Of a stretch of 23,705 nucleotides of DNA, positions 2,636 to 21,958 are shown one piece after another. The stretch comes from a virus: IMG/VR virus record IMGVR_UViG_3300048999_000098, positions 1 to 23,705 of that record. One strand, 5' to 3'. A program made the position numbers and the translations under genes. How positions within the stretch are numbered: position 1 is the stretch's first letter; each line of letters begins with the position of its first letter. The notes under the pieces were generated by a model. It did no database searches and was not told the DNA's origin. It saw only the letters and a program-made list of their open reading frames with translations.

Positions 2636-3043
2636 ATGAATACACAACCATTAAACGATATAACCACCGATCCTCCAAATGGAGGCTCTGGTGTACCTGA
2701 TAAACCAAAAGGACTAAGATATAACACTGGCAAGGCTAAATGGTCGCTGATCGACTTCCCTTCGCTGGAGCCGATGGTTAGGGTTATGGAGTATGGGGCT
2801 GGTAAATACGCGCCTCATAACTGGAAAAAAGGCATGTCACATACTGAAATTGCAGAATGTTTGATGCGGCACCTGTTTGCCTACTTAAATGGTGAAGATA
2901 CTGACCCGGAAAGCGGCGAAAGTCATGTAGGGCACATTCAATGCAACGCTATGTTTTTGCAATACAATATTAAAAATCATCCTGAATTGGATGATAGATA
3001 TGCCTCACCTAACCTCTCCAAAGGAGAGGAATTAGAAAAGTGA
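2636..3043 (+). CDS. dATP/dGTP diphosphohydrolase N-terminal domain family (DUF5664-like)
   Basis: A protein of 135 residues. The core from about residue 27 (LRYNTGKAKWSLIDFPSLEP, then VMEYGAGKYAPHNWKKG, then LMRHLFAYLNGEDTDPESGE and SHVGHIQCNAMFL) matches my memory of the phage family annotated dATP/dGTP diphosphohydrolase N-terminal domain. Conserved features are the RH pair, the GEDxDPESG acidic loop and the final SHxxH-x-CN helix. Such all-helical, MazG-like enzymes hydrolyse (d)NTPs and occur in phages that adjust the host nucleotide pool. The N-terminal PPNGGSG stretch and the C-terminal ASPNLSKGEELEK tail are encoded by GC-rich palindromes and are probably repeat-derived additions. The gene ends 4 bp before the portal start. 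The family call is good; the substrate is not shown here. Confidence 0.78.
   Translation: MNTQPLNDITTDPPNGGSGVPDKPKGLRYNTGKAKWSLIDFPSLEPMVRVMEYGAGKYAPHNWKKGMSHTEIAECLMRHLFAYLNGEDTDPESGESHVGHIQCNAMFLQYNIKNHPELDDRYASPNLSKGEELEK
3013..3029. repeat. GC-rich palindrome CCTCTCC-AAA-GGAGAGG, coding
   Basis: A perfect 7-bp stem with an AAA loop, preceded by CCTCACCTAA as in the intergenic copies at 14552, 20281 and 23553. Here it lies inside the reading frame and encodes the NLSKGEE part of the C-terminus of the diphosphohydrolase-family protein. Confidence 0.88.
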
Positions 3044-7356: not shown

Positions 7357-7397
7357 AAAAAAAGATACTTGTTTTAATTTGGTTGTGCTGATGTGGG

Positions 7398-7429
7398 CGG
7401 GGTTGTATTTATACAATCCCGTTTTTTTT
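7398..7429 (+). terminator. Rho-independent terminator after the head genes
   Basis: The stem CGGGGTTGTA (7398-7407) and TACAATCCCG (7412-7421) forms 10 pairs including one G-T wobble, with a TTTA loop, followed by eight T residues. This is the clearest terminator in the window. It ends the portal/capsid/decoration transcript before promoter 3. Confidence 0.88.
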
Positions 7430-7591: not shown

Positions 7592-7955
7592 GTTATTTGA
7601 TCGGCTTGAGACTTTGGTTTTTGGGACGGTTAATCAAATTTTTGGTGAAACTATTTTAGCTACCTGGGTTTCGGTTGATACCCTTGCTTCTTATACAGGT
7701 TCGGTTCTTTTTAGTAATCCTACCCATAAGGAGACAATGGATCAAATAGAGTATGTTGAGGCTGATCCTTATTTTGAATATCTCGCGCCTGCTTTTGCCG
7801 GTTTAAAATTCAGGGCCGATAAGTCGCAAAATGAAATTGTAAACATATCCGGTGCTGATTATTATGTTACCGCTGTTAGTCAGCTTAGTGATGGCAATAC
7901 TTTTAAAGCTTATGTGCAATTAGTTACCAGCGCTTACGGACCGGTTAGTAGTTAG
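7584..7955 (+). CDS. Putative head-tail connector / head completion protein
   Basis: A protein of 123 residues that probably initiates at TTG 7584: AGGAGG (7573-7578) lies 5 nt upstream and no in-frame ATG is nearby. It starts MPKLFDRLETLVFGTVNQ, followed by FGETILATWVS, a SYTGSVLFSNPTHKE strand, a FEYLAPAFAGLKFRADKSQ segment and YYVTAVSQLSDGNTFKAYV. That resembles small beta-barrel head-closure (lambda FII-like) proteins, where a FGE(T/S) start and a turn like SGADYYVT are common. The assignment rests mainly on position and this weak resemblance. The TAG stop is the start of a TAGTCATT repeat array. Confidence 0.55.
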   Translation: MPKLFDRLETLVFGTVNQIFGETILATWVSVDTLASYTGSVLFSNPTHKETMDQIEYVEADPYFEYLAPAFAGLKFRADKSQNEIVNISGADYYVTAVSQLSDGNTFKAYVQLVTSAYGPVSS

Positions 7956-7996
7956 TCATTGGTCATTGGTCATTGGTCATTGGTCATTGGTCATTA
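7955..7996 (+). repeat. GTCATTG/GTCATTA heptamer array, six units
   Basis: Five GTCATTG units and a final GTCATTA. The first G is the last base of the upstream TAG stop codon. The next start codon is at 8017. Confidence 0.92.
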
Positions 7997-8016: not shown

Positions 8017-8445
8017 ATGTTAGTAAATATAACTCCTGTACGGGCTAATACCTTACCTCTTGACAGTGCTTTAACAGGCACCGAGACTATGCTTATTATA
8101 AGCAATGGTATATTGTACAGGGCGTCTGTTGCCCAGTTTGCTTTACTGGTTGGTTCAGGTCCTTCGGCTCAAACTGTGCTTATTCCGGCAGGTACGCCCA
8201 TACCTGCACCTATCATAATGAATACTGTTTATTCAATATATGGGCCTAAGGCAAGTATAATAGCAGAGATACCAGATGTTGACGACCCTACCGATACTGT
8301 ACTAATTGAATTTAAAGACATTGAGATCAGGAGAAGATACAGTGATTCATCCAAAACGGTGCTGGTAAGTATAGATATATATGGGCACCAAGACGCTACA
8401 GGTTTACTTTTTAATGAAGATACTTATATAACCATAAAACCTTAA
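8017..8445 (+). CDS. Hypothetical phage structural protein, possibly fibre-associated
   Basis: A protein of 142 residues with no confident family. The N-terminal MLVNITPVRANTLPLDSALTGTET and MLIISNGILYRASVAQF resembles the short module seen at the start of many tail-fibre proteins (LTGTE ... NG ... A/S-QF). The rest is acidic and beta-rich, with an IPDVDDPTDTVLIEFKDIEIR strand pair. It has no signal peptide, unlike the next five genes. It stops 1 nt before the next ATG, so it is in the same operon. It may be a cytoplasmic partner or virion anchor of the exported fibres. Confidence 0.5.
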   Translation: MLVNITPVRANTLPLDSALTGTETMLIISNGILYRASVAQFALLVGSGPSAQTVLIPAGTPIPAPIIMNTVYSIYGPKASIIAEIPDVDDPTDTVLIEFKDIEIRRRYSDSSKTVLVSIDIYGHQDATGLLFNEDTYITIKP

Positions 8446-8446
8446 T

Positions 8447-9337
8447 ATGAAGAAGATATTTTTTATATTTTCCCTTTTTTATTATACCTGTTCTTTTAGC
8501 CAGGTAAAGTCTGTTGCTCCTCAATTTGTAACTGACCCCACAAAGGATAGTATCGGTTACTCCATTCCTAACATTGCAGGCGTAAAATGGCTGTATGATA
8601 GTAGGATTATTAACACCAGCGTTGCAGGCGGTCCAATAACTACCCTGCCGACCATTGGCTTTAACCCTGGCGCTGGAATATCAGCAAGCAAGTGGATAGC
8701 CAATACTTTTTATGGATCACAATCACCAACGGCAAGTTTGACAGGTGGGAACATTTATGAATTAACAACAAGTAACCAAACCCATAATTTAAATTGGACG
8801 TATGGAAGGCAATCAGCTACCGTAACAATAGCAACAGTCGTTATTAATCCTGGTTCATTTAATGTGTTTAGTAGTCAGCCAAGCCAACCCGGAACCATAA
8901 GCGGAACACAGTCCGTAACCACAACGGCCAATACTAACACTACTTATACGCTTACAGTTACAACTACAGACAGTAAGACGGCAACATCAACAACAACGGA
9001 TACCTTTTTACCGCGTTTTTATTATGGCAGGTGTGCAGGTTCAACGCCTACAACAACGGAAATACTGGCTTTTGCAGGTGGTAATAATCCTTTAACAGGC
9101 TCACACGCCATAGGCCCAGTAACAATCACAGCAAGCGGTAGTAAATGGCCCTTTTTCAGTTATCCTGCAAGTGAAGGTTTTGTAACTATTATCAAAGATG
9201 TAAATGGGTTTGATGTTACCAGCGCCTTTGTTTTAACGACCGTTAGCCTTACCAATACATCAGGATACACCCAAGCATATAACATATATACCTTAAATGC
9301 CGCAACAGCCTCTAATTATACTATAACTACCAATTAA
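8447..9337 (+). CDS. Exported Ig-like tail-fibre protein
   Basis: A protein of 296 residues. The Sec signal peptide MKKIFFIFSLFYYTCSFS is followed by Gln, matching the Bacteroidetes Q-rule. The mature part has a central Ser/Thr-rich Ig-like stretch (SGTQSVTTTANTNTTYTLTV). It then has a module of PRFYYGRCAGSTPTTTEILA, WPFFSYPASEGFVTIIKDVN and a final GYTQAYNIYTLN, which I recognise from tail-fibre and spike proteins of Bacteroidota phages. Its likely role is receptor contact at the host surface. It lies 1 nt after the upstream gene and 1 nt before the next. An export signal on a phage fibre is unusual. No type IX secretion C-terminal domain is evident. Confidence 0.65.
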   Translation: MKKIFFIFSLFYYTCSFSQVKSVAPQFVTDPTKDSIGYSIPNIAGVKWLYDSRIINTSVAGGPITTLPTIGFNPGAGISASKWIANTFYGSQSPTASLTGGNIYELTTSNQTHNLNWTYGRQSATVTIATVVINPGSFNVFSSQPSQPGTISGTQSVTTTANTNTTYTLTVTTTDSKTATSTTTDTFLPRFYYGRCAGSTPTTTEILAFAGGNNPLTGSHAIGPVTITASGSKWPFFSYPASEGFVTIIKDVNGFDVTSAFVLTTVSLTNTSGYTQAYNIYTLNAATASNYTITTN

Positions 9338-9338
9338 G

Positions 9339-11480
9339 ATGAAAAGATTAATTTTTATATTTTTATTATTTGCCTCGTTTGGGAGCATTGCGCAAACTAT
9401 AGGTATCAAAGTCGCAACGCCAATTATAAAAAATAACCCTGCTGACAATACCTCAACAGGGTATGCAGACCTTTTAACAGGTGGTTACCATATTGGCGGG
9501 ACTTATCATAGCCGTGACAGTTTAACCACTTCTTTTAATTCGGTATTAAAAGTTGGTATGTTATTTTATGTTACGGGTGTGGATAGTACTTACAGGTGGA
9601 GCGGGTCAGCATGGATGCCTTTAGCTTTAGGCGGCACTACTTTATATACCGGTGATGGGACGATAACAGGTAGCGGTATAGTAAGGACAGTTAACATAGG
9701 TAATAATTTATTGTTTTTTAAAGACCCAACATCCCATGTTGTTGTACGGATTGATGCGACAACGGGAGGGGGGCCAGATATTGTTTTACAGGCATGGAAT
9801 AGCTCAAATGTCGGTGGTTCGTTAAGGTTAGATGCTACAAACACCTTGTTAGGCTTTAACAGTCCATCATGGGGGCAATCGTTCATACAGCAAAATATGG
9901 CTGGAATGATCATACATGACCCTATTAATAATGTAGGTTTAATTACGGACGCTTCTGTTGATACATCGGTAATTACTGATTATCCAAGGGCTTATGTCAC
10001 AAATGAATGGGTAACGAGGCGTTTAGGAGGAAGTGGAATTACAACAAATTTACTAACAGTAGACAATAGCGGGACGGGTGATGTCAGTGGCTTTACCTTT
10101 AACGGCAGTGTGCCTAAAAAGATAAGTTATAATTCTATAGGCGCGCAGGCTGCTTTAGGTTTCACACCAAGTCCAATTTTAACATTTACCGGTGGACTTC
10201 AAAAAACTGGAACAACTGTTAAATTAGGGGGATTAATACCAAGTGGGGTATCCTTGGACCTACCAAGCCACTTTGATGCAGGAGACGGGTCATCAACATT
10301 TTATATTGGGGACAATAGGGGTTCTGTTTCATATTTTCAACAAAATATAGACCCAATATATAGGAGAACAAGTATAACCACATCTTCAGATGGGTCAGAC
10401 AGTAATGATCCCGCGCAGTTTTCGTCCAACCTGGTTATAGGCAACAATGGCAGTACACCAGATGGAAGTAGACAATTGTACGGGTCAGAGTTATCTTATT
10501 ACGATAATTTAGGTAATATTCAACAAATACATTTAGGTGAAAGTCCTATAGGGTCGGGTTTTAGTTCGGTTAAGAACTTTTATTTTAGAGACGATATTAA
10601 TCAAATTGGGCCAACTGATTATGCCGATTATTCAGCAAATTTCGTAGCGCTGTCTTTAATCACAAAAGTATACGCAGATAGTCATTATGCCCTTTCAGGC
10701 GGCGGCTCTCCTTTCACTTCTATTTTTGGACGTACAACTCCGGCTCTTATTGCCACATCCGGTGACTACAACACCTCCCAGGTAACTGAAAATACGAATT
10801 TATACTATACTAATGCCAGGGCAATTACAGCGCCTTTGACCGGCTACACAAGCGGTGCGGGAACGGTTTTAGCAACCGATAATATTTTACAGGCATTTCA
10901 AAAGGTCAATGGTAATGTAGCTGCAAATACTTCAACTATAAGTGGTTTAAGTTCGGTTTATCAGCCTATTGGCACATACCTTATCCCTACCGGATCATAT
11001 GCAGACCCAACCTGGATAACATCACTTGCTTATAGTAAAATTACGGGTGTGCCTGCATTTTTAACCAGTTATACCGAAACTGACCCCTTGGTGCCTTCTT
11101 ATGCAAAAGGCCTAACGGCATTTTCAGTAATAAAATCATCTACCGATCTTTTGTACGGAACAATAAGTCAGCAAAATACCAACACTTCAAACATTGCTAC
11201 AAATACCACAAATATTGCAACCAACACAACCGCGATCACAGGCAAATTAGCGGCTTCAAATTTTGTTTTTGATGAAGTGCCTTCCGGGACGATAAACGGG
11301 ACTAACGTAACTTTTACGCTTGCATTTACACCCGCAACAGGGTCAGTACGCCTTTATAAAAACGGACAGCGGTTGAAATTAACTACTGATTATACAATTT
11401 CAGGAGGAACTATTACATATGTAGTACCACCTGTTTTAATTCCATACCCTGATTTACTTGCAGCAGAATATATAAAATAA
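9339..11480 (+). CDS. Large exported tail-fibre / receptor-binding protein
   Basis: A protein of 713 residues. The signal peptide MKRLIFIFLLFASFGSIA is followed by Gln. The body is a chain of short beta modules typical of trimeric phage fibres: SAWMPLALGGTTLYTGDG, IGAQAALGFTPSPILTF, and an FGRTTPALIATSGDYNTSQV then TENTNLYYTNARA module. A helical segment follows (VNGNVAANTSTISGL, later NTSNIATNTTNIATNTTAI). The final ~75 residues (EVPSGTINGTNVTFTLAFTP, then VRLYKNGQRLKLTTDYTISG) match a domain that often closes phage fibres. It is probably the main adhesin of the virion or a surface-displayed copy of it. There is no chaperone or autocleavage motif that I recognise. Confidence 0.75.
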   Translation: MKRLIFIFLLFASFGSIAQTIGIKVATPIIKNNPADNTSTGYADLLTGGYHIGGTYHSRDSLTTSFNSVLKVGMLFYVTGVDSTYRWSGSAWMPLALGGTTLYTGDGTITGSGIVRTVNIGNNLLFFKDPTSHVVVRIDATTGGGPDIVLQAWNSSNVGGSLRLDATNTLLGFNSPSWGQSFIQQNMAGMIIHDPINNVGLITDASVDTSVITDYPRAYVTNEWVTRRLGGSGITTNLLTVDNSGTGDVSGFTFNGSVPKKISYNSIGAQAALGFTPSPILTFTGGLQKTGTTVKLGGLIPSGVSLDLPSHFDAGDGSSTFYIGDNRGSVSYFQQNIDPIYRRTSITTSSDGSDSNDPAQFSSNLVIGNNGSTPDGSRQLYGSELSYYDNLGNIQQIHLGESPIGSGFSSVKNFYFRDDINQIGPTDYADYSANFVALSLITKVYADSHYALSGGGSPFTSIFGRTTPALIATSGDYNTSQVTENTNLYYTNARAITAPLTGYTSGAGTVLATDNILQAFQKVNGNVAANTSTISGLSSVYQPIGTYLIPTGSYADPTWITSLAYSKITGVPAFLTSYTETDPLVPSYAKGLTAFSVIKSSTDLLYGTISQQNTNTSNIATNTTNIATNTTAITGKLAASNFVFDEVPSGTINGTNVTFTLAFTPATGSVRLYKNGQRLKLTTDYTISGGTITYVVPPVLIPYPDLLAAEYIK

Positions 11481-11488
11481 CATAACTA

Positions 11489-12838
11489 ATGAAAAAATTA
11501 ATTTTATTTCTATTTACGGCGGCGCTTTCGCTAACGGGCTTATCGCAGTCAAAAATTAGTACGGGTAACCTTAATATCCCGACTGCCATAACAGGCACAT
11601 ATGGAAATCTTCGCGTTGTTGGCTATGGATCAAGGGTGCCTTTTCAGTTAGCTACCTTTTCAGATGGTACAGCCACGACCGAAACCGTAAGGTCACATTA
11701 TATAGCTATTGGTCAAATCAGCGACATTCATATCGCATTCTGCAATTTTCCAGGCCAGCAAGCTTTATTAACAGATGTCAACCCATCGGCTGATGTCACG
11801 CTTCAGATCGCTATCGAATATCCATCGGGCACGTTTACCAATGTTTATTTTAACGGAGCGGGAACCTACCTCTTAAAGCTACGAGCAACCGTACTTAGTG
11901 ATGCTGTGCCAGTAGTTATACCGGATGGCGCTGACTTTTGGGTACGAACAAATGTACTTGTCACATCTGGTCAAAAGTGGGTAAGAAACGGTGTAGCGAA
12001 CACCTCATTCAATGAAGGGATCGCAGCTAATACCAACTCCTATAATTCCGGTACGATTGCTAATAGTACCGGATTTTGTTTTACGCCTGCGGCTGTTTTA
12101 GGTACATCCACAACGAACAAAGGAAGTGTGTTATGGTTAGGTGATTCGATTTCGTTAGGACAAAACGATTCAGGTGCAGGTACGACAACAAATTGTCCTT
12201 TCGTGCAGAGCGGAGGCATATTTAACCGGGCCTTCGGTAAGACTTATCCGGTACTTATGTCTAATGTATCCGGACAAAAGGTAAATTTTTATAACCCTAC
12301 ATTAACCGCTGGCTCTGTTGCTAACTTTTCAAGTATATTTTCAACTTGTCAATATGCGATAAGCAACTTAGGGGTTAACGACTTTACGTCATTTACCGCT
12401 TTACAGGTTGAGCAATCATATTTAAATATGTTCGGCCCGCTAAAATCGCGGGGCGTAACAAGCTACCAATGCACCATTACGCCAAGGACAAGCAGTACGG
12501 ACTTATGGGTTACTACTACAAACCAAACGGTAACGCCACAAGAAGCCGTTAGGATAGCAATTAACACCTGGTTGCGTGACGGTGCACCTTACGATTACGC
12601 AACTTTTACACCGGTAGCAAGTGGAACGGCAGTTGGAGGCACGGTTATCAGGATCGGTTCACCTAATCATGTTCTTGCAGGTATAATTGAAATTGCTGAC
12701 GCAGTTGAAACATCACGAAATAGCGGTATATGGCCCGCTAATGGAACAACGGATGGATTGCATGGAGTAAATGCAACTTATACGGCTATGGCTGCTGTAT
12801 TAACAGCAGTATTGGCTAAGTATTTCAATAAGTTTTAA
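11489..12838 (+). CDS. Exported SGNH/GDSL-family hydrolase (putative glycan esterase)
   Basis: A protein of 449 residues with signal peptide [19 protein letters not shown] and Gln at the next position. SGNH hydrolase blocks are present in order: G218-D219-S220 in LGDSISLG (nucleophile Ser220), G-V-N297-D298 in NLGVNDF, and D422-x-x-H425 in TDGLHGVN. Family members remove acetyl or acyl groups from polysaccharides, lipids or peptidoglycan. About 200 residues precede the catalytic domain and look like a beta-rich binding or virion-attachment domain. Between two fibre-like genes, a role in de-acetylating surface polysaccharide during adsorption is a reasonable inference. Substrate and location on the virion are unknown. 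Confidence 0.8.
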
Positions 12839-12858
12839 AAAAGGGAAATAATCAAAAT

Positions 12859-13620
12859 ATGAAAAAAGTAATTTTTATTGCAATAATGACCTGCTCATTA
12901 TTATGTGCAAAGGCTCAAACAAACGTTTTTGAAAGAGTAAACGCTGGGCCTGCCAAACCCGGCTATATCTTGCAAATGGGTACGGACGGATATTATCATG
13001 CTATTGATCCTGTAACCATTACGGCATTAAAAGGGGCAACCGGAGCGCAAGGCATAACAGGATTAACCGGAGCTACGGGCGCGCAAGGATTACCGGGCAT
13101 AAATGGCGCTATCGGTGCAACTGGCCCTATTGGGCCTGCTGGAAGTAATGGAATACAAGGAGCAACCGGCGCGACCGGCCCGTCAGGCCCAATAGGGCCA
13201 GCAGGTAACTTTGCAAGCATCCCCAACCAACAGGAGGGTTACACACCTGCCTACATTAATGGGCAATGGATAGCGGTACCAGCGAGTTACAATATTGATA
13301 TTGCCTGGTACCCGGTATTAACTTCATCTTTTTCGGTTGGGATTCCTATTCCTAAAACAGGTAAGTATACGGTAGCCCTTTCAGCCTTACCCGCGATATT
13401 ACCAGCAGGATCATCTATAACAGCTATTGTTACCTATACTGATCAAAATGGGGTATTGACAACAATACCTTCAACCAAATTTCCGGCGATAACAACTATT
13501 ATCCAAACTGACTATCCGGTAATGCAGCTTATGATACAGGGGCTAACAAATTTATCTATCCAGTTTATATTAACTGGCCCTGGTACCTATGCAGCCGGTG
13601 ATGTTGTGCATCAACTTTAA
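12859..13620 (+). CDS. Exported collagen-like fibre protein
   Basis: A protein of 253 residues. The signal peptide [19 protein letters not shown] is followed by Gln. A short N-terminal segment ([20 protein letters not shown]) precedes 19 uninterrupted Gly-X-Y triplets (residues 59-115), many of the GAT, GAQ, GPI and GPA type, which should form a rigid triple-helical stalk. After the stalk comes a [20 protein letters not shown] linker and a ~110-residue beta-rich head domain. The architecture is that of a trimeric phage fibre, although exported collagen-like proteins are also known in bacteria. It follows the SGNH gene by 20 bp. A GC-rich palindrome comes after it. Confidence 0.75.
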
Positions 13621-13624
13621 CAAT

Positions 13625-13690
13625 AGCCCCAGCCTCCTCTAAATCTCCCCTGGTAGGGGAGACTTTAAAAGCAGTAGGGGAGACTTTTGA
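13625..13690. repeat. GC-rich palindrome (TCTCCCC-TGGTA-GGGGAGA) with duplicated right arm
   Basis: The element reads CCTCCTCTAAATCTCCCC, then TGGTA, then GGGGAGACTTTAAA. The stem is 7 bp (13644-13650 with 13656-13662). The right half, AGTAGGGGAGACTTT, is repeated at about 13674-13688, so the element has been partly duplicated. Related copies lie at 14079 and 15401. Confidence 0.85.
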
Positions 13691-13728
13691 TTTTACTTAT
13701 ATAAATACTAAACATAACAAATAAAAGT

Positions 13729-14058
13729 ATGAAAATAGCAATTTTAATTATCGCCCTGGTGGCATTTACAGCGTTTGGCTTTGCTCAAACAAAAAGTCCA
13801 AAAGTCCGAAAGTCGGAAAGTGTTAAAAAGGACACAGTACAGGTAAAACCTAAGTATAAGAAGTTTTTTGCAGTGCCCGAACAGACTTATTATTTACTTA
13901 TTGGCGCTGCTCAATATTATAAGGATGGTTTGATTTATAATCCTTTATTAACAGACAAAGAACAAAGAAGCCAGGCAATTGATATGAGCGGTTTGATTAA
14001 CTACCTTAATAAAAACATGAAGATTGACAGCGTTATAGTTTCGCCTGTAAAAAAGTAA
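13729..14058 (+). CDS. Small exported basic protein of unknown function
   Basis: A protein of 109 residues. The signal peptide MKIAILIIALVAFTAFGFA is followed by Gln, then a basic stretch (KSPKVRKSESVKKDTVQV) that includes AGTCGGA-type repeat words. The C-terminal domain FAVPEQTYYLLIGAAQYYKD, then NPLLTDKEQRSQAIDMSGLI, has no family that I can name. It stands just before the holin, so a lysis role (for example a periplasmic spanin-like or endolysin-accessory part) is possible. It lacks both the lipobox of an outer spanin and the coiled coil of an inner spanin. A fibre-associated role is equally possible. Confidence 0.5.
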   Translation: MKIAILIIALVAFTAFGFAQTKSPKVRKSESVKKDTVQVKPKYKKFFAVPEQTYYLLIGAAQYYKDGLIYNPLLTDKEQRSQAIDMSGLINYLNKNMKIDSVIVSPVKK

Positions 14059-14142: not shown

Positions 14143-14538
14143 ATGGAAACTTCAAAAAAATGGACTTTAGATCTTATTGATTACGGTAAGGCGTTTATCA
14201 TGGCTGTATTATCTGCGGTAATAGGGGGCTTGGTTTCAATGGCGCAGGCTGGAAATACACATTTTGACCCTAAGACAATACTTGCCTTCGCTATATCTGG
14301 CGCTGGCGCTTATTTATTACATGCATTGCCGCAAGTTTCTCAAGTTATAATAACCCCGACAACTTTGTTAAGTAGTCCGGTTAGCGATAAGAGTAATTTA
14401 ATTACAGCGCAATCACAGGCGGCAGCAATTGAAGCCGCTATTGATAAGCCTGTGGTTATTGCGGATACTGCTCCTATTGTTGTATCTACAAATACTACAG
14501 GGGCTGCGCCTGTTGAACAGCCGGGTTCAAGTATGTAA
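14143..14538 (+). CDS. Putative holin
   Basis: A protein of 131 residues with two hydrophobic segments: about residues 13-33 (YGKAFIMAVLSAVIGGLVSM) and about 46-66 (ILAFAISGAGAYLLHALPQV), separated by the short polar QAGNTHFDPKT. The tail is soluble and Ala/Thr/Pro-rich. Size, two closely spaced membrane segments and the start METSKKWTLDLIDYGKAF resemble holins annotated in Bacteroidota prophages. Such proteins form membrane lesions at the end of the lytic cycle. No endolysin is adjacent in the window, which weakens the context argument. A GC-rich palindrome with a T run follows. Confidence 0.65.
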   Translation: METSKKWTLDLIDYGKAFIMAVLSAVIGGLVSMAQAGNTHFDPKTILAFAISGAGAYLLHALPQVSQVIITPTTLLSSPVSDKSNLITAQSQAAAIEAAIDKPVVIADTAPIVVSTNTTGAAPVEQPGSSM

Positions 14539-14551
14539 TAAGCCTCGCCCT

Positions 14552-14577
14552 ACCCTCTCCAAAGGAGAGGGTTTTTA
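14552..14577 (+). repeat. GC-rich palindrome ACCCTCTCC-AAA-GGAGAGGGT with T run (possible terminator)
   Basis: A perfect 9-bp stem (14552-14560 with 14564-14572), loop AAA, followed by TTTTAATT. It is preceded by GCCTCGCCCT as in other copies. Of all palindromes of this family in the window, this one most resembles a rho-independent terminator. Confidence 0.8.
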
Positions 14578-15530: not shown

Positions 15531-16958
15531 ATGCCATTTTTTCATGGAACCAAAGTGGATGACGTAGCGGCGCTGCTGATTTCTATTGCCCAGGTTAACG
15601 GTAGTACTATAGCCCTTGTGGGTACAGCACCCGACGGCCCGGCTGGTATGACCTTAGTAAGCTCACCTGCCGACGCTGCCCGGTTTGGTAAAAGTGTTTT
15701 TGATGGCCGTACTATTCCCCATGCGCTCGACGCAATTATAGGGCAGGGAACCAGCCAGGTTATAGTTATTAACTGTTTTAAAGCAGGTCATTTAGTAGCT
15801 GTTGCTGCCGAGGCTGTAGTCGTGCCGGTTGGTTTTGTTGTACCTTTGGCTCATGTGCCGGTAGGTCCGATAATTGTTGAAACTGCCGCACCGGTTATTT
15901 TGGTTAATGGTGTTGATTACAGCTATAATGCAGGCGATAAGTTTTTCACTATTCTTACTACCCGCACCTATATTGCCACTACTGCGCTTACTGTTGCTTA
16001 CAGCTACTTTAATTCTGCATTGGTTTTGGCTACTGATATTATTGGTGGTATAGATGGTGTTACAGGTGTAAGAACTGGTATTGCTTTGCTTGACTTGTGT
16101 TTTGCTATTACAGGCTTAACACCAAAAATACTTATCGCACCTATCCATTCAGAAACACAAACCGTTAACGACGCGCTGCTTTTACAGGCAGGTAAGCTTC
16201 GTTCCCGTGTTATTAACGATTCGCCAAGTGGTACAACCATTGCCGGAGCAGTTGCTTCGCGCGGTAATTTAGGAACTTATGTGAATTGGAATAGCTCAAA
16301 CCCGCGTCTTGTACCGGTGTTTCCTTACGTATTTAAACCAGACCCATTAAATCCCAATACTCCTGGTCAGCCTTTTCCTTATGCTGCATATTTTGCCGGC
16401 ATGTGGGCCGCTTCTATCAACAAGAACGGTATACAGCGCTCGCCGAGCAACTTGTCTATGGCTGGTTTTACTACCCCCGTAGTACCCATTTCTTTTACCA
16501 TAGGTGATAACACCTGCGATGCTTCCATATTGAATGCGGCAGGTATCAATAGCATCTGTTCCGCCTTTGGCACAGGACCTAAATCATGGGGTAACAGAAG
16601 CGCAGCGTTCCCGGCGTCAAACGGTATCTCTACCTTTTTATCTGTGCTATTAGTACAGGATATTATTGACGAGAGCGTACAAATGGCGTCATTGGCTTAC
16701 CAGGATTTACCTTTGGATCTAGCCCTGATAGACAGTATAGTATCTGCCGTTAACGCGCTGTTGAATAGTTTAAAACTATCAAAGGCAATTATTGATGGCG
16801 AGGCTTATTACGATCAAAATCTTAATACGCCTACACAATTAGCTACAGGTCAGGTAATTATAAGCTACAGGGACTTACCGCCGCCACCGGCTGAAGGTGT
16901 TACCTTCCAAAGCTTTATTGATATATCGCTGTTCGTGAGTTCGGGATTGGCGGGGTAA
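15531..16958 (+). CDS. Contractile tail sheath protein
   Basis: A protein of 475 residues. The start MPFFHGTKVDDVAALLISIA, then STIALVGTAPDGPAG, is typical of P2 FI/Mu L-type sheath proteins. A beta-rich insertion domain follows (residues ~85-170, DYSYNAGDKFFTILTTRTYI). The core has IIGGIDGVTGVRTGIALLDL, TPKILIAPIHSETQTVNDAL and YAAYFAGMWAASINKNG. The C-terminal ring-forming part includes QDIIDESVQMASLAY and VIISYRDLPPPPAEGVTFQS. It polymerises round the tube and contracts on adsorption, so the phage has a myovirus-type tail. Length is normal for the family. It is followed by the tube gene. Confidence 0.93.
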   Translation: MPFFHGTKVDDVAALLISIAQVNGSTIALVGTAPDGPAGMTLVSSPADAARFGKSVFDGRTIPHALDAIIGQGTSQVIVINCFKAGHLVAVAAEAVVVPVGFVVPLAHVPVGPIIVETAAPVILVNGVDYSYNAGDKFFTILTTRTYIATTALTVAYSYFNSALVLATDIIGGIDGVTGVRTGIALLDLCFAITGLTPKILIAPIHSETQTVNDALLLQAGKLRSRVINDSPSGTTIAGAVASRGNLGTYVNWNSSNPRLVPVFPYVFKPDPLNPNTPGQPFPYAAYFAGMWAASINKNGIQRSPSNLSMAGFTTPVVPISFTIGDNTCDASILNAAGINSICSAFGTGPKSWGNRSAAFPASNGISTFLSVLLVQDIIDESVQMASLAYQDLPLDLALIDSIVSAVNALLNSLKLSKAIIDGEAYYDQNLNTPTQLATGQVIISYRDLPPPPAEGVTFQSFIDISLFVSSGLAG

Positions 16959-18123: not shown

Positions 18124-18254
18124 CCCCTGTCCACATTGCTTATGTGGCAGAAAATACCGGTTGGGGGTACGGTGAAATTATGGGGATGACATGCCAGGAT
18201 ATTTATTTTTGGGCATCCGAATTTTTGGGCTTGAATAAATTGAGAGGGATTTAG
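17656..18254 (+). CDS. Tail assembly chaperone, -1 frameshift product (gpE+E'-like)
   Basis: Slippage on A-AAT-TTG (18111-18117) would move the ribosome from the gpE-like frame into the -1 frame just before the TAA at 18121. It would add 45 residues: VITPVHIAYVAENTGWGY, then GEIMGMTCQDIYFWASEF, ending LGLNKLRGI. That extension looks like the second half of known frameshifted chaperones (Asn-Thr-Gly-Trp start, QDIYFWASEF helix). It has no start codon of its own and is open only in this window of frame overlap (a TAG closes it at 18105). Total ~199 residues. Programmed frameshifting here is conserved in many tailed phages. The shift efficiency and any stimulatory hairpin are not determined. Confidence 0.78.
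18111..18117 (+). promoter_or_regulatory. -1 ribosomal slippery heptamer A-AAT-TTG
   Basis: It fits X-XXY-YYZ in the gpE-like frame (codons AAT and TTG, slipping to AAA and TTT). It is the only such heptamer between the -1-frame TAG at 18105 and the 0-frame TAA at 18121, so it is the most likely shift site. Confidence 0.75.
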
Positions 18255-18328
18255 TCATTAGTCATTAGTCATTAGTCATTAGTCATTAGTCATTAGTCAT
18301 TAGTCATTAGTCATTAGTCATTAGTCAT
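18252..18328 (+). repeat. TAGTCAT heptamer array, 11 perfect units
   Basis: Eleven identical copies of TAGTCAT, the longest and most uniform array in the window. The first TAG is the stop codon of the frameshifted chaperone. The array ends 13 bp before the tape measure ATG, so it is the whole intergenic region. Such perfect copies suggest recent expansion. Confidence 0.97.
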
Positions 18329-18341
18329 TTAATAATCAATC

Positions 18342-21266: not shown

Positions 21267-21488
21267 ATGGGAAATTTATCATATACCACTACGGGTGGGG
21301 AAAATTGGGGTATGCTAAGTTATAAATATTATGGCGATGAAGGGTTGTTTAAGTTGATTACTGACGCCAATCCTCTTGTTGCTATTACACCTATTTTACC
21401 TGCCGGTATAACTTTAGCTATTCCAATTGTACAGCCGCCAGATAGTAGTATTAATGCGGCGTTATTACCGGCGTGGAAGCGTGTTTAG
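21267..21488 (+). CDS. X: gpX-like tail protein (LysM-like)
   Basis: A protein of 73 residues: YTTTGGENWGMLSYKYYGDE, then LFKLITDANPLVAITPILPA and GITLAIPIVQPP. This is the pattern of the P2 gpX family: a small LysM-like fold with a G-(E/D)-W start, a YYG turn, an ANP helix and a final LPAG-x-x-L-x-IP. The protein binds peptidoglycan or the baseplate hub during tail assembly. It normally lies between U and D genes. Here a Nudix gene separates it from D. Its TAG stop starts the TAGTCAT array. Confidence 0.9.
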   Translation: MGNLSYTTTGGENWGMLSYKYYGDEGLFKLITDANPLVAITPILPAGITLAIPIVQPPDSSINAALLPAWKRV

Positions 21489-21513
21489 TCATTAGTCATT
21501 AGTCATTAGTCAT
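21486..21513 (+). repeat. TAGTCAT heptamer array, four units
   Basis: Four perfect TAGTCAT units. The first TAG is the stop codon of the X gene, and the Nudix ATG comes 2 nt after the last unit, so the array is the complete intergenic region. Confidence 0.96.
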
Positions 21514-21514
21514 T

Positions 21515-21958
21515 ATGAAAAATACAAAATGTTACGTTCTTGGATTTGCGTTTAACAATCATAAAACAAAGGTTATTTTAATAAAAAAAAATAGGCCATT
21601 ATGGCAAAATGGGTTATTAAACGGTGTTGGTGGTAAGGTTGAGTTAACTGATATTGATATATATCATACCATGACAAGGGAGTTTTTTGAAGAAACAGGC
21701 GTCACCACAAAAGAAAAAGAATGGCACCACTTTGCCGATATGGGATTCGATGAAGATATAATGGGCGGCAGCGCTATGGTTCACTGCTTTAGATTAAGTA
21801 ATGATATAGTCAATGATTGTAAAACAATTGAAAGCGAAGAAATAATACATTTCGACTTGGAAAATCCTTGCAGCTATCCAATTGTAAGCAATTTAAACGT
21901 ATTGATTCCAATGGCTAAAGATAGTAATTTCAATTTTTGCAAGTTAAGTATATTGTAA
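21515..21958 (+). CDS. Nudix hydrolase (cargo gene within the tail operon)
   Basis: A protein of 147 residues. The Nudix box lies at residues 40-63: G40-x5-D46, then after 8 residues R55-E56-F-x-E59-E60-x-G62-V63. The catalytic REUxEExGU half is intact. Compared with the consensus (G-x5-E-x7-RE) the first Glu is Asp and the spacer is one residue longer. Upstream, RPLWQNGLLNGVGGKVE is typical of small-molecule Nudix enzymes of phages and bacteria that cleave nucleoside diphosphate derivatives. It sits between the X and D genes, which are usually adjacent, flanked by a TAGTCAT array on the left and 2 bp on the right. I read it as an inserted cargo gene. Substrate is unknown. Confidence 0.85.
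   Translation: MKNTKCYVLGFAFNNHKTKVILIKKNRPLWQNGLLNGVGGKVELTDIDIYHTMTREFFEETGVTTKEKEWHHFADMGFDEDIMGGSAMVHCFRLSNDIVNDCKTIESEEIIHFDLENPCSYPIVSNLNVLIPMAKDSNFNFCKLSIL

Follow-up and report, generated by a model that had tools for sequence, protein, structure and literature searches.

Five consecutive genes with Q-rule export signals in the structural region of a Mu/P2-like phage: a possible periplasmic route for virion fibres

Introduction

The DNA considered here, IMG/VR virus record IMGVR_UViG_3300048999_000098, is a viral contig of 23,705 bases (the window, which is the whole record), and its profile matches are those of a Mu/P2-like phage with a contractile tail. Tailed-phage capsids and tails assemble in the cytoplasm, and the usual assumption is that the fibres stay there too and are added to the tail before the cell lyses. 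Five consecutive open reading frames (ORFs) of this phage, at positions 8447-14058, each begin with a Sec signal peptide of the signal peptidase I (SPase I) type that has Gln at position +1, the arrangement called the Q-rule in Bacteroidetes. The locus thus raises the question of why a phage should export proteins that look like its own fibres. On balance we favour the answer that the fibres are parts of the virion that are exported by Sec, trimmed and probably capped with pyroglutamate in the periplasm, and joined to the tail at or after lysis.

Results

The preliminary description of this DNA had placed signal peptides at the starts of the proteins encoded at 8447, 9339, 11489, 12859 and 13729. 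All five N-termini were found there, and a Q-rule signal was called at each by a rule-based caller, not a trained predictor, which takes account of the charge of the n-region, an uncharged h-region, small residues at -3/-1 and the residue at +1. The signals are 18-19 residues long, end in Ser or Ala and are followed by Gln; F1 opens with MKKIFFIFSLFYYTCSFS followed by QVK, F2 with MKRLIFIFLLFASFGSIA followed by QTI, and F5 with MKIAILIIALVAFTAFGFA followed by QTK. The cut in F4 was called at the Q site under a relaxed c-region rule, a stricter rule having put it three residues earlier. All five proteins show the features of Bacteroidetes Q-rule SPase I substrates (basic n-region, hydrophobic core, small residues at -3/-1 and Gln at +1). 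The five genes are as follows.

8447..9337, + strand: F1, exported protein of 296 residues, probable fibre judged from its position (signal 8447-8500)
9339..11480, + strand: F2, large fibre or virion structural protein of 713 residues, from its Q-rule signal and shared motifs (signal 9339-9392)
11489..12838, + strand: F3, SGNH/GDSL esterase of 449 residues, from a PHROG 8480 match (signal 11489-11545)
12859..13620, + strand: F4, collagen-like fibre of 253 residues, from matches to Pfam Collagen PF01391 and PHROG tail fibre (signal 12859-12915)
13729..14058, + strand: F5, small exported protein of 109 residues, from its Q-rule signal (signal 13729-13785)

The window sequence itself shows the five signals, the fact that they are clustered, and the position of the cluster among the structural genes. 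The caller found +1-Gln signals in these five ORFs only, that is, in 5 of the 25 window genes, compared with 13 of 1885 genes in comparison loci anchored on a phosphoesterase gene, where no locus had more than one (binomial P ~7e-7, for which the comparison rate is a rough null because the loci are fragments, many of which do not cover fibre genes). When the first 40 residues of each protein were shuffled, a Q-signal appeared in 0.3-0.7% of cases. The block is tightly packed and co-oriented with the head and tail genes, it is flanked by two terminator-like hairpins, and four of its five genes start no more than about 20 nucleotides past the preceding stop. A C-terminal sorting domain of the type IX secretion system (T9SS) gave no Pfam or NCBIfam match up to E=1 in the five proteins. 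No lipobox with Cys at +1 was present in them either; the Cys residues of F1 and F4 lie within the signal and outside any lipobox.

Two of the functional labels in the preliminary description, SGNH hydrolase for F3 and collagen-like fibre for F4, were borne out. F3 matches the lysophospholipase L1-like esterases of PHROG 8480 (E=5e-38), has a GDS block at residues 218-220, with a Pfam GDSL match under the cut-off, and is 28-30% identical, at 80-92% coverage, to esterases that carry the annotation minor tail protein in Gordonia phages and their relatives. F4 matches Pfam Collagen PF01391 over the cut-off and PHROG tail fibre families behind its Q-rule signal. The label "Ig-like fibre" for F1 found no profile match to support it: F1 has no profile relative, and tblastn against 50,697 phages was empty. 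The same search with F2, a protein of 713 residues with the composition of a fibre, also found nothing. F5 has no family match in profile searches and no recognisable fibre feature; a fibre accessory and a lysis-related protein are candidate roles for it. Searches of PDB sequences gave nothing useful, and the structures predicted for F3 from an alignment of two sequences and for F1 from its sequence alone were left unused, their predicted local distance difference test scores being ~31-32.

The preliminary description implied that the cluster was peculiar to this window, which it is not. Five consecutive genes carry Q-rule signals in each of the Cellulophaga phages phi10:1 (gp91-95) and phi46:3 (gp79-83), and four in a row do so in Ingeline_1 (gp31-34). 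In phi19:1, gp101-104 all have a signal, with Q at +1 in three of the four; Nekkels_1 (gp53-55) and phi18:3 (gp85-87) have three Q-rule genes each, phi13:2 has a similar Q-rule layout (gp84, 86, 87), and the IMG/VR contigs L219 and L221 have three in a row each. In these relatives comparable proteins are recorded as virion components. "Experimental MS/MS proteomics" (tandem mass spectrometry) is cited in the records of phi19:1 gp101-104, phi10:1 gp91-94 and phi18:3 gp85-87, such a citation being a depositors' note rather than spectra or mature N-termini; phi10:1 gp95 is annotated by similarity, and all other block members of phi19:1 and phi10:1 are marked as detected. We scored 36 MS/MS virion proteins of phi19:1, phi10:1 and phi18:3 for signals. 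Eleven had one (10 with Q), all inside the adsorption block, and none was found in the remaining 25, which include the portal, capsid, connector, tail and tape measure proteins. A signal-less MS/MS structural protein of 116 residues (gp90) stands ahead of the phi10:1 block, and a membrane protein is also encoded downstream of the block in Cellulophaga phages.

A possible sequence link between these blocks and the window is provided by F2. The N-terminal motif of mature F2, GxxxYx(n)YxWxGxxW, is common to signal-bearing MS/MS virion proteins of Cellulophaga phages, GMLFYVTGVDSTYRWSGSAW shortly past the F2 signal corresponding to GSLCYNSTEESLYSYDGSTW of the gp101 family. Farther on, LITKVYADSHY of F2 resembles LITKGYADATY of the same family, and both motifs occur in the same order. 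Among fetched ORFs totalling 1.55 million residues, the pattern LITKxYADxxY was seen 15 times, and each instance lay within the gp101/gp79 family or in a single phi14:2 virion protein recorded by MS/MS. Judged from these motifs, F2 is probably a virion fibre. F1, F3, F4 and F5 showed no sequence homology to Cellulophaga block members.

The export signals of the Cellulophaga blocks have persisted through recombination. From residue 35 on, phi46:3 gp81 is 92% identical to phi19:1 gp102, while its signal differs and is of the gp82 type; phi10:1 gp92 and Nekkels gp53 are 76% identical over residues 68-401 and differ in their signals. phi10:1 gp95 resembles residues 187-651 of Nekkels gp55 (its C-terminal domain; 32% identical) and is a separate polypeptide with its own signal. 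In six aligned proteins of the gp101/gp79 family the +1 Gln is invariant, and the signal sequences fall into three types. N-termini swapped by recombination keep a Q-rule signal, not its sequence, and the secretion route of the fibre cassettes is apparently under selection.

We also compared the block proteins with homologues that lie outside such blocks. None of the three SGNH homologues examined, which come from phages of other phyla (Gordonia Keitabear gp26, Mesorhizobium Lo5R7ANS_62 and one in the high-GC contig L002), has a signal, nor do pectate-lyase homologues in other phages; the signals are thus extra to fibre-type proteins of an ordinary kind and no inherent part of the domains. Among virion pectate lyases of Cellulophaga phages there are signal-bearing and signal-less forms, and the signal-less one of phi17:2 shares its catalytic region with signal-bearing ones. 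Signal-bearing and signal-less delivery coexist among Bacteroidota phages. In contigs related to the window phage by portal, sheath or capsid, the head-tail junction often has no extra genes (L003, L004, L113). Two others (L115 and L114) have fibre-like genes in the same region, one gene over and without a conventional signal, one L114 ORF giving a marginal signal call with a 12-residue n-region; L116, a clade member by portal and terminase, has a Q-rule fibre-like gene just past the portal. When F1, F2, F3, the portal and the L116 fibre were each searched in about 300-400 Bacteroidota genomes, no cassette was found. An F1 match (L232/L233) was taken as chance, since it lies in a metabolic region, and an F2 match (L196/L199) was set aside as a cassette relative because it is confined to the C-terminal part and lies in a prophage.

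The remaining features on which the account draws are the following.

1161-2576: calcineurin-like phosphoesterase (PHROG 22398), between terminase and portal
7395..7424, + strand: intrinsic-terminator-like hairpin before the cassette, from a search for terminator-type hairpins
8017..8445, + strand: signal-less protein of 142 residues directly upstream of the block, noted for its position
14143..14538, + strand: hydrophobic protein of 131 residues with two likely membrane segments, from its sequence
14552..14572, + strand: intrinsic-terminator-like hairpin just after the cassette (9 bp, 6 GC), from the same kind of search

The protein at 8017..8445 is a candidate docking protein on the tail by virtue of its position; it has no significant sequence match to the proteins upstream of the Cellulophaga blocks. 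The protein at 14143..14538 has no family match and is possibly holin-like. The hairpins are to be read against a background of 12 such sites found in the region where 7.6 are expected by chance. A Bacteroidetes-type promoter was looked for ahead of the block and not found.

Profile matches in the window identified the terminase large subunit (its start missing), portal, protease-capsid fusion, decoration protein, Gp37, tail sheath, a gene of the P2-type tail-tube family (PHROG 55), tape measure and protein D, and a LysM-like tail X protein was assigned by sequence. The closest phage relatives of the phosphoesterase are in Cellulophaga phages (44-54% identical), which together with the Q-rule itself points to a host in the Bacteroidota. 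Phosphoesterases of PHROG 22398 are found in many Bacteroidota-type phages in which most of the remaining genes do not match those of the window phage. A dNTP (deoxynucleoside triphosphate) pyrophosphohydrolase-like gene (2636-3043) and, judged by sequence, a NUDIX-like gene (21515-21958) sit among the structural genes. The window also has many short heptamer arrays (AAGTCGG, TTAGTCA, GTCATTG), among them those at 1200-1243, 2577-2624, 7955-7995, 18251-18329 and 21485-21515; they are mostly intergenic, and some are intragenic and translated as KSEVGSQ-like repeats.

Discussion

We propose that the block would be the host-adsorption apparatus of a Mu/P2-like myophage of Bacteroidota, made up of a large fibre, a collagen-like fibre, an SGNH esterase that would act on a surface glycan or lipid, and two further proteins. 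Capsid and tail would assemble in the cytoplasm without the fibres, while the block members would be made as Sec precursors and exported by the host SecYEG, SPase I would cut before Gln, and a host glutaminyl cyclase would presumably cyclise the exposed Gln to pyroglutamate. Since capsids and tails assemble in the cytoplasm, the exported fibres would meet the tail only at or after lysis, when holin and endolysin would mix the compartments and the mature fibres and enzyme would bind the tail and complete the particle. Export and cleavage in the window phage, pyroglutamate capping and late attachment are steps that we infer, the first three from the established Q-rule pathway (PMC5837995, PMC10653852). 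The preliminary description had offered four fates for the exported proteins. The Cellulophaga Q-rule fibre and lyase blocks, recorded as MS/MS virion proteins, favour one of these, addition to virions outside the cytoplasm; display on the lysogen, release as decoys or blockers, and use in biofilm or adhesion are little supported, given that there is no T9SS domain or lipobox and that the genes lie inside the structural region.

Several observations weigh against this proposal. The F2 comparison with the family profile is weak (probability 43%, E=0.00025) and is inflated by the signal itself, and F1 and F5 have no homologue that links either to virions. Features specific to the periplasm are not enriched in the five proteins, which have few Cys and the O-glycosylation motif at background frequency. 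In the crAss-like phage phi14:2 none of the 14 MS/MS virion proteins that were scored has a signal, a pectate lyase being among them, and virion lyases or fibres of phi14:2, phi17:2 and phi12:1 use none, so that export is not required for adsorption proteins. Finally, detection by MS/MS could stem from exported protein that co-purified with the particles.

This last point is central to the first alternative, that the exported proteins act off the virion, whether as soluble decoys, as blockers of the receptor, or as esterases and lyases clearing capsule and debris from around the lysing cell, and that they turn up in virion preparations through co-purification. It takes the signals as true export signals, it suits the presence of enzymes (SGNH in the window, pectate lyases in relatives), and purified virions submitted to MS/MS may contain sticky secreted proteins. 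We nevertheless consider it unlikely, because every block member of phi19:1 and phi10:1 other than phi10:1 gp95 is MS/MS-marked, because both blocks hold the annotated tail fibre gene, no second, signal-less one being annotated in the stretches read, and because fibre and lyase share N-terminal segments, as in modular docking on a virion.

A second alternative is that the signal-like N-termini are left uncleaved or are poorly exported, and that their hydrophobic segment serves to dock the fibre to the tail or the inner membrane while assembly proceeds in the cytoplasm. The topological problem would then vanish, and the record of these proteins in virions would be accounted for. However, the +1 Gln and the small -3/-1 residues are kept in non-homologous signals, although a docking helix needs neither, and apart from the one marginal L114 call the fibre-like genes at the head-tail junction of L114 and L115 manage without a conventional signal; we regard this alternative as improbable. 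It is very unlikely that the proteins are lysogenic-conversion or adhesion factors, secreted by lysogens to alter the surface, biofilm or superinfection. They are exported, the collagen-like protein weakly resembles collagen-like adhesins by profile, and the block lies between two terminator-like hairpins, but its genes are tightly packed, share one orientation and separate the head genes from the tail genes, the proteins have neither a T9SS sorting domain nor a lipobox, and comparable blocks in relatives encode virion proteins, for which reason we rejected it as a leading explanation. Chance or misannotation, through wrong starts or generic hydrophobic N-termini called by a rule-based method, was rejected likewise and has a negligible probability in view of the P value of ~7e-7 against other phage genes, the frequency of under 1% in each set of shuffles, and the close spacing of four of the five starts to the previous stop.

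With attachment of periplasmic fibres at or after lysis as the preferred reading for the window phage, we advance more tentatively, as a possibility a little short of probable, that an entire class of Bacteroidota tailed phages assembles in this manner. Their particles would be built in two compartments: the capsid and tail in the cytoplasm, while the receptor-binding fibres and depolymerases would be exported by Sec, acquire pyroglutamate ends in the periplasm and dock on the tail only when the cell lyses. Until then no particle would be infectious, and enzymes of the periplasm could modify the fibres. Were the export of virion fibres routine among Bacteroidota phages, the last assembly step would take place outside the cytoplasm. 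Approaches to intracellular particles and adsorption mutants, the production of recombinant fibres and the annotation of fibres would all be affected across a major gut and marine phylum. Cultured Cellulophaga phages with virion proteomics already exist as test systems.

Export signals were also seen in other settings in Bacteroidota phages. In Bacteroides phage p00 (Hankyphage; L231 5054-5440) a Q-rule protein of 128 residues directly follows the lysin gene and is probably a lysis-cassette protein, and in a Bacteroidota prophage (L199, reverse complement 16052-16682) genes for a membrane-anchored and a Q-rule protein overlap, resembling an inner/outer spanin pair without a lipobox. Flavobacterium phage FCL-2 (L214 45363-45806) encodes a Q-rule protein of 147 residues whose mature form starts with QVGIATTTPTETLDVNG, a motif that occurs in fibre-like secreted Bacteroidota proteins. 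A "structural protein with Ig domain" of Riemerella phage RAP44 (L230 12853-13545) opens with the lipoprotein-like signal MKKVLLFFALSLATLGTFTSC, and some phage structural proteins may therefore use the signal peptidase II route.

Parts of this arrangement have precedents. Bacteroidetes Q-rule SPase I substrates (PMC5837995, PMC10653852) have the same signal and +1 Gln but are host envelope or secreted proteins, and the word "phage" is absent from PMC5837995. Q-rule signals in Porphyromonas gingivalis phage genes of unknown function are already in print (PMC10367356): phages of the proposed family Nixviridae, like the window, have five phage-encoded genes with Q-rule SPase I signals, which, likened here by description, were read as host envelope modifiers and not as virion fibres. 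Signal peptides on virion fibres of Bacteroidota phages were the subject of no report found in the literature searched, which lacked most subscription papers. The SGNH esterases of PHROG 8480, annotated as minor tail protein or esterase in phages of Gordonia, Arthrobacter and Mesorhizobium, are homologous over most of F3 and, unlike F3, have no signal peptide in the three homologues checked. The closest counterparts are the Cellulophaga blocks. Like the block of the window, they are unbroken runs of genes, three to five in number, of which nearly every one has a Q-rule signal; they combine fibres with a glycan-active enzyme, there is often a small protein with no signal encoded ahead of the run and a membrane protein behind it, and two motifs are common to F2 and the gp101/gp79 family. 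They differ in having other tailed-phage backbones and pectate lyases where the window has an SGNH esterase, and in lying away from the head-tail junction, at which the block of the window phage lies; F1, F3, F4 and F5 have no overall homology to their members. We rate the block as an ordinary fibre cassette with an unusual secretion route.

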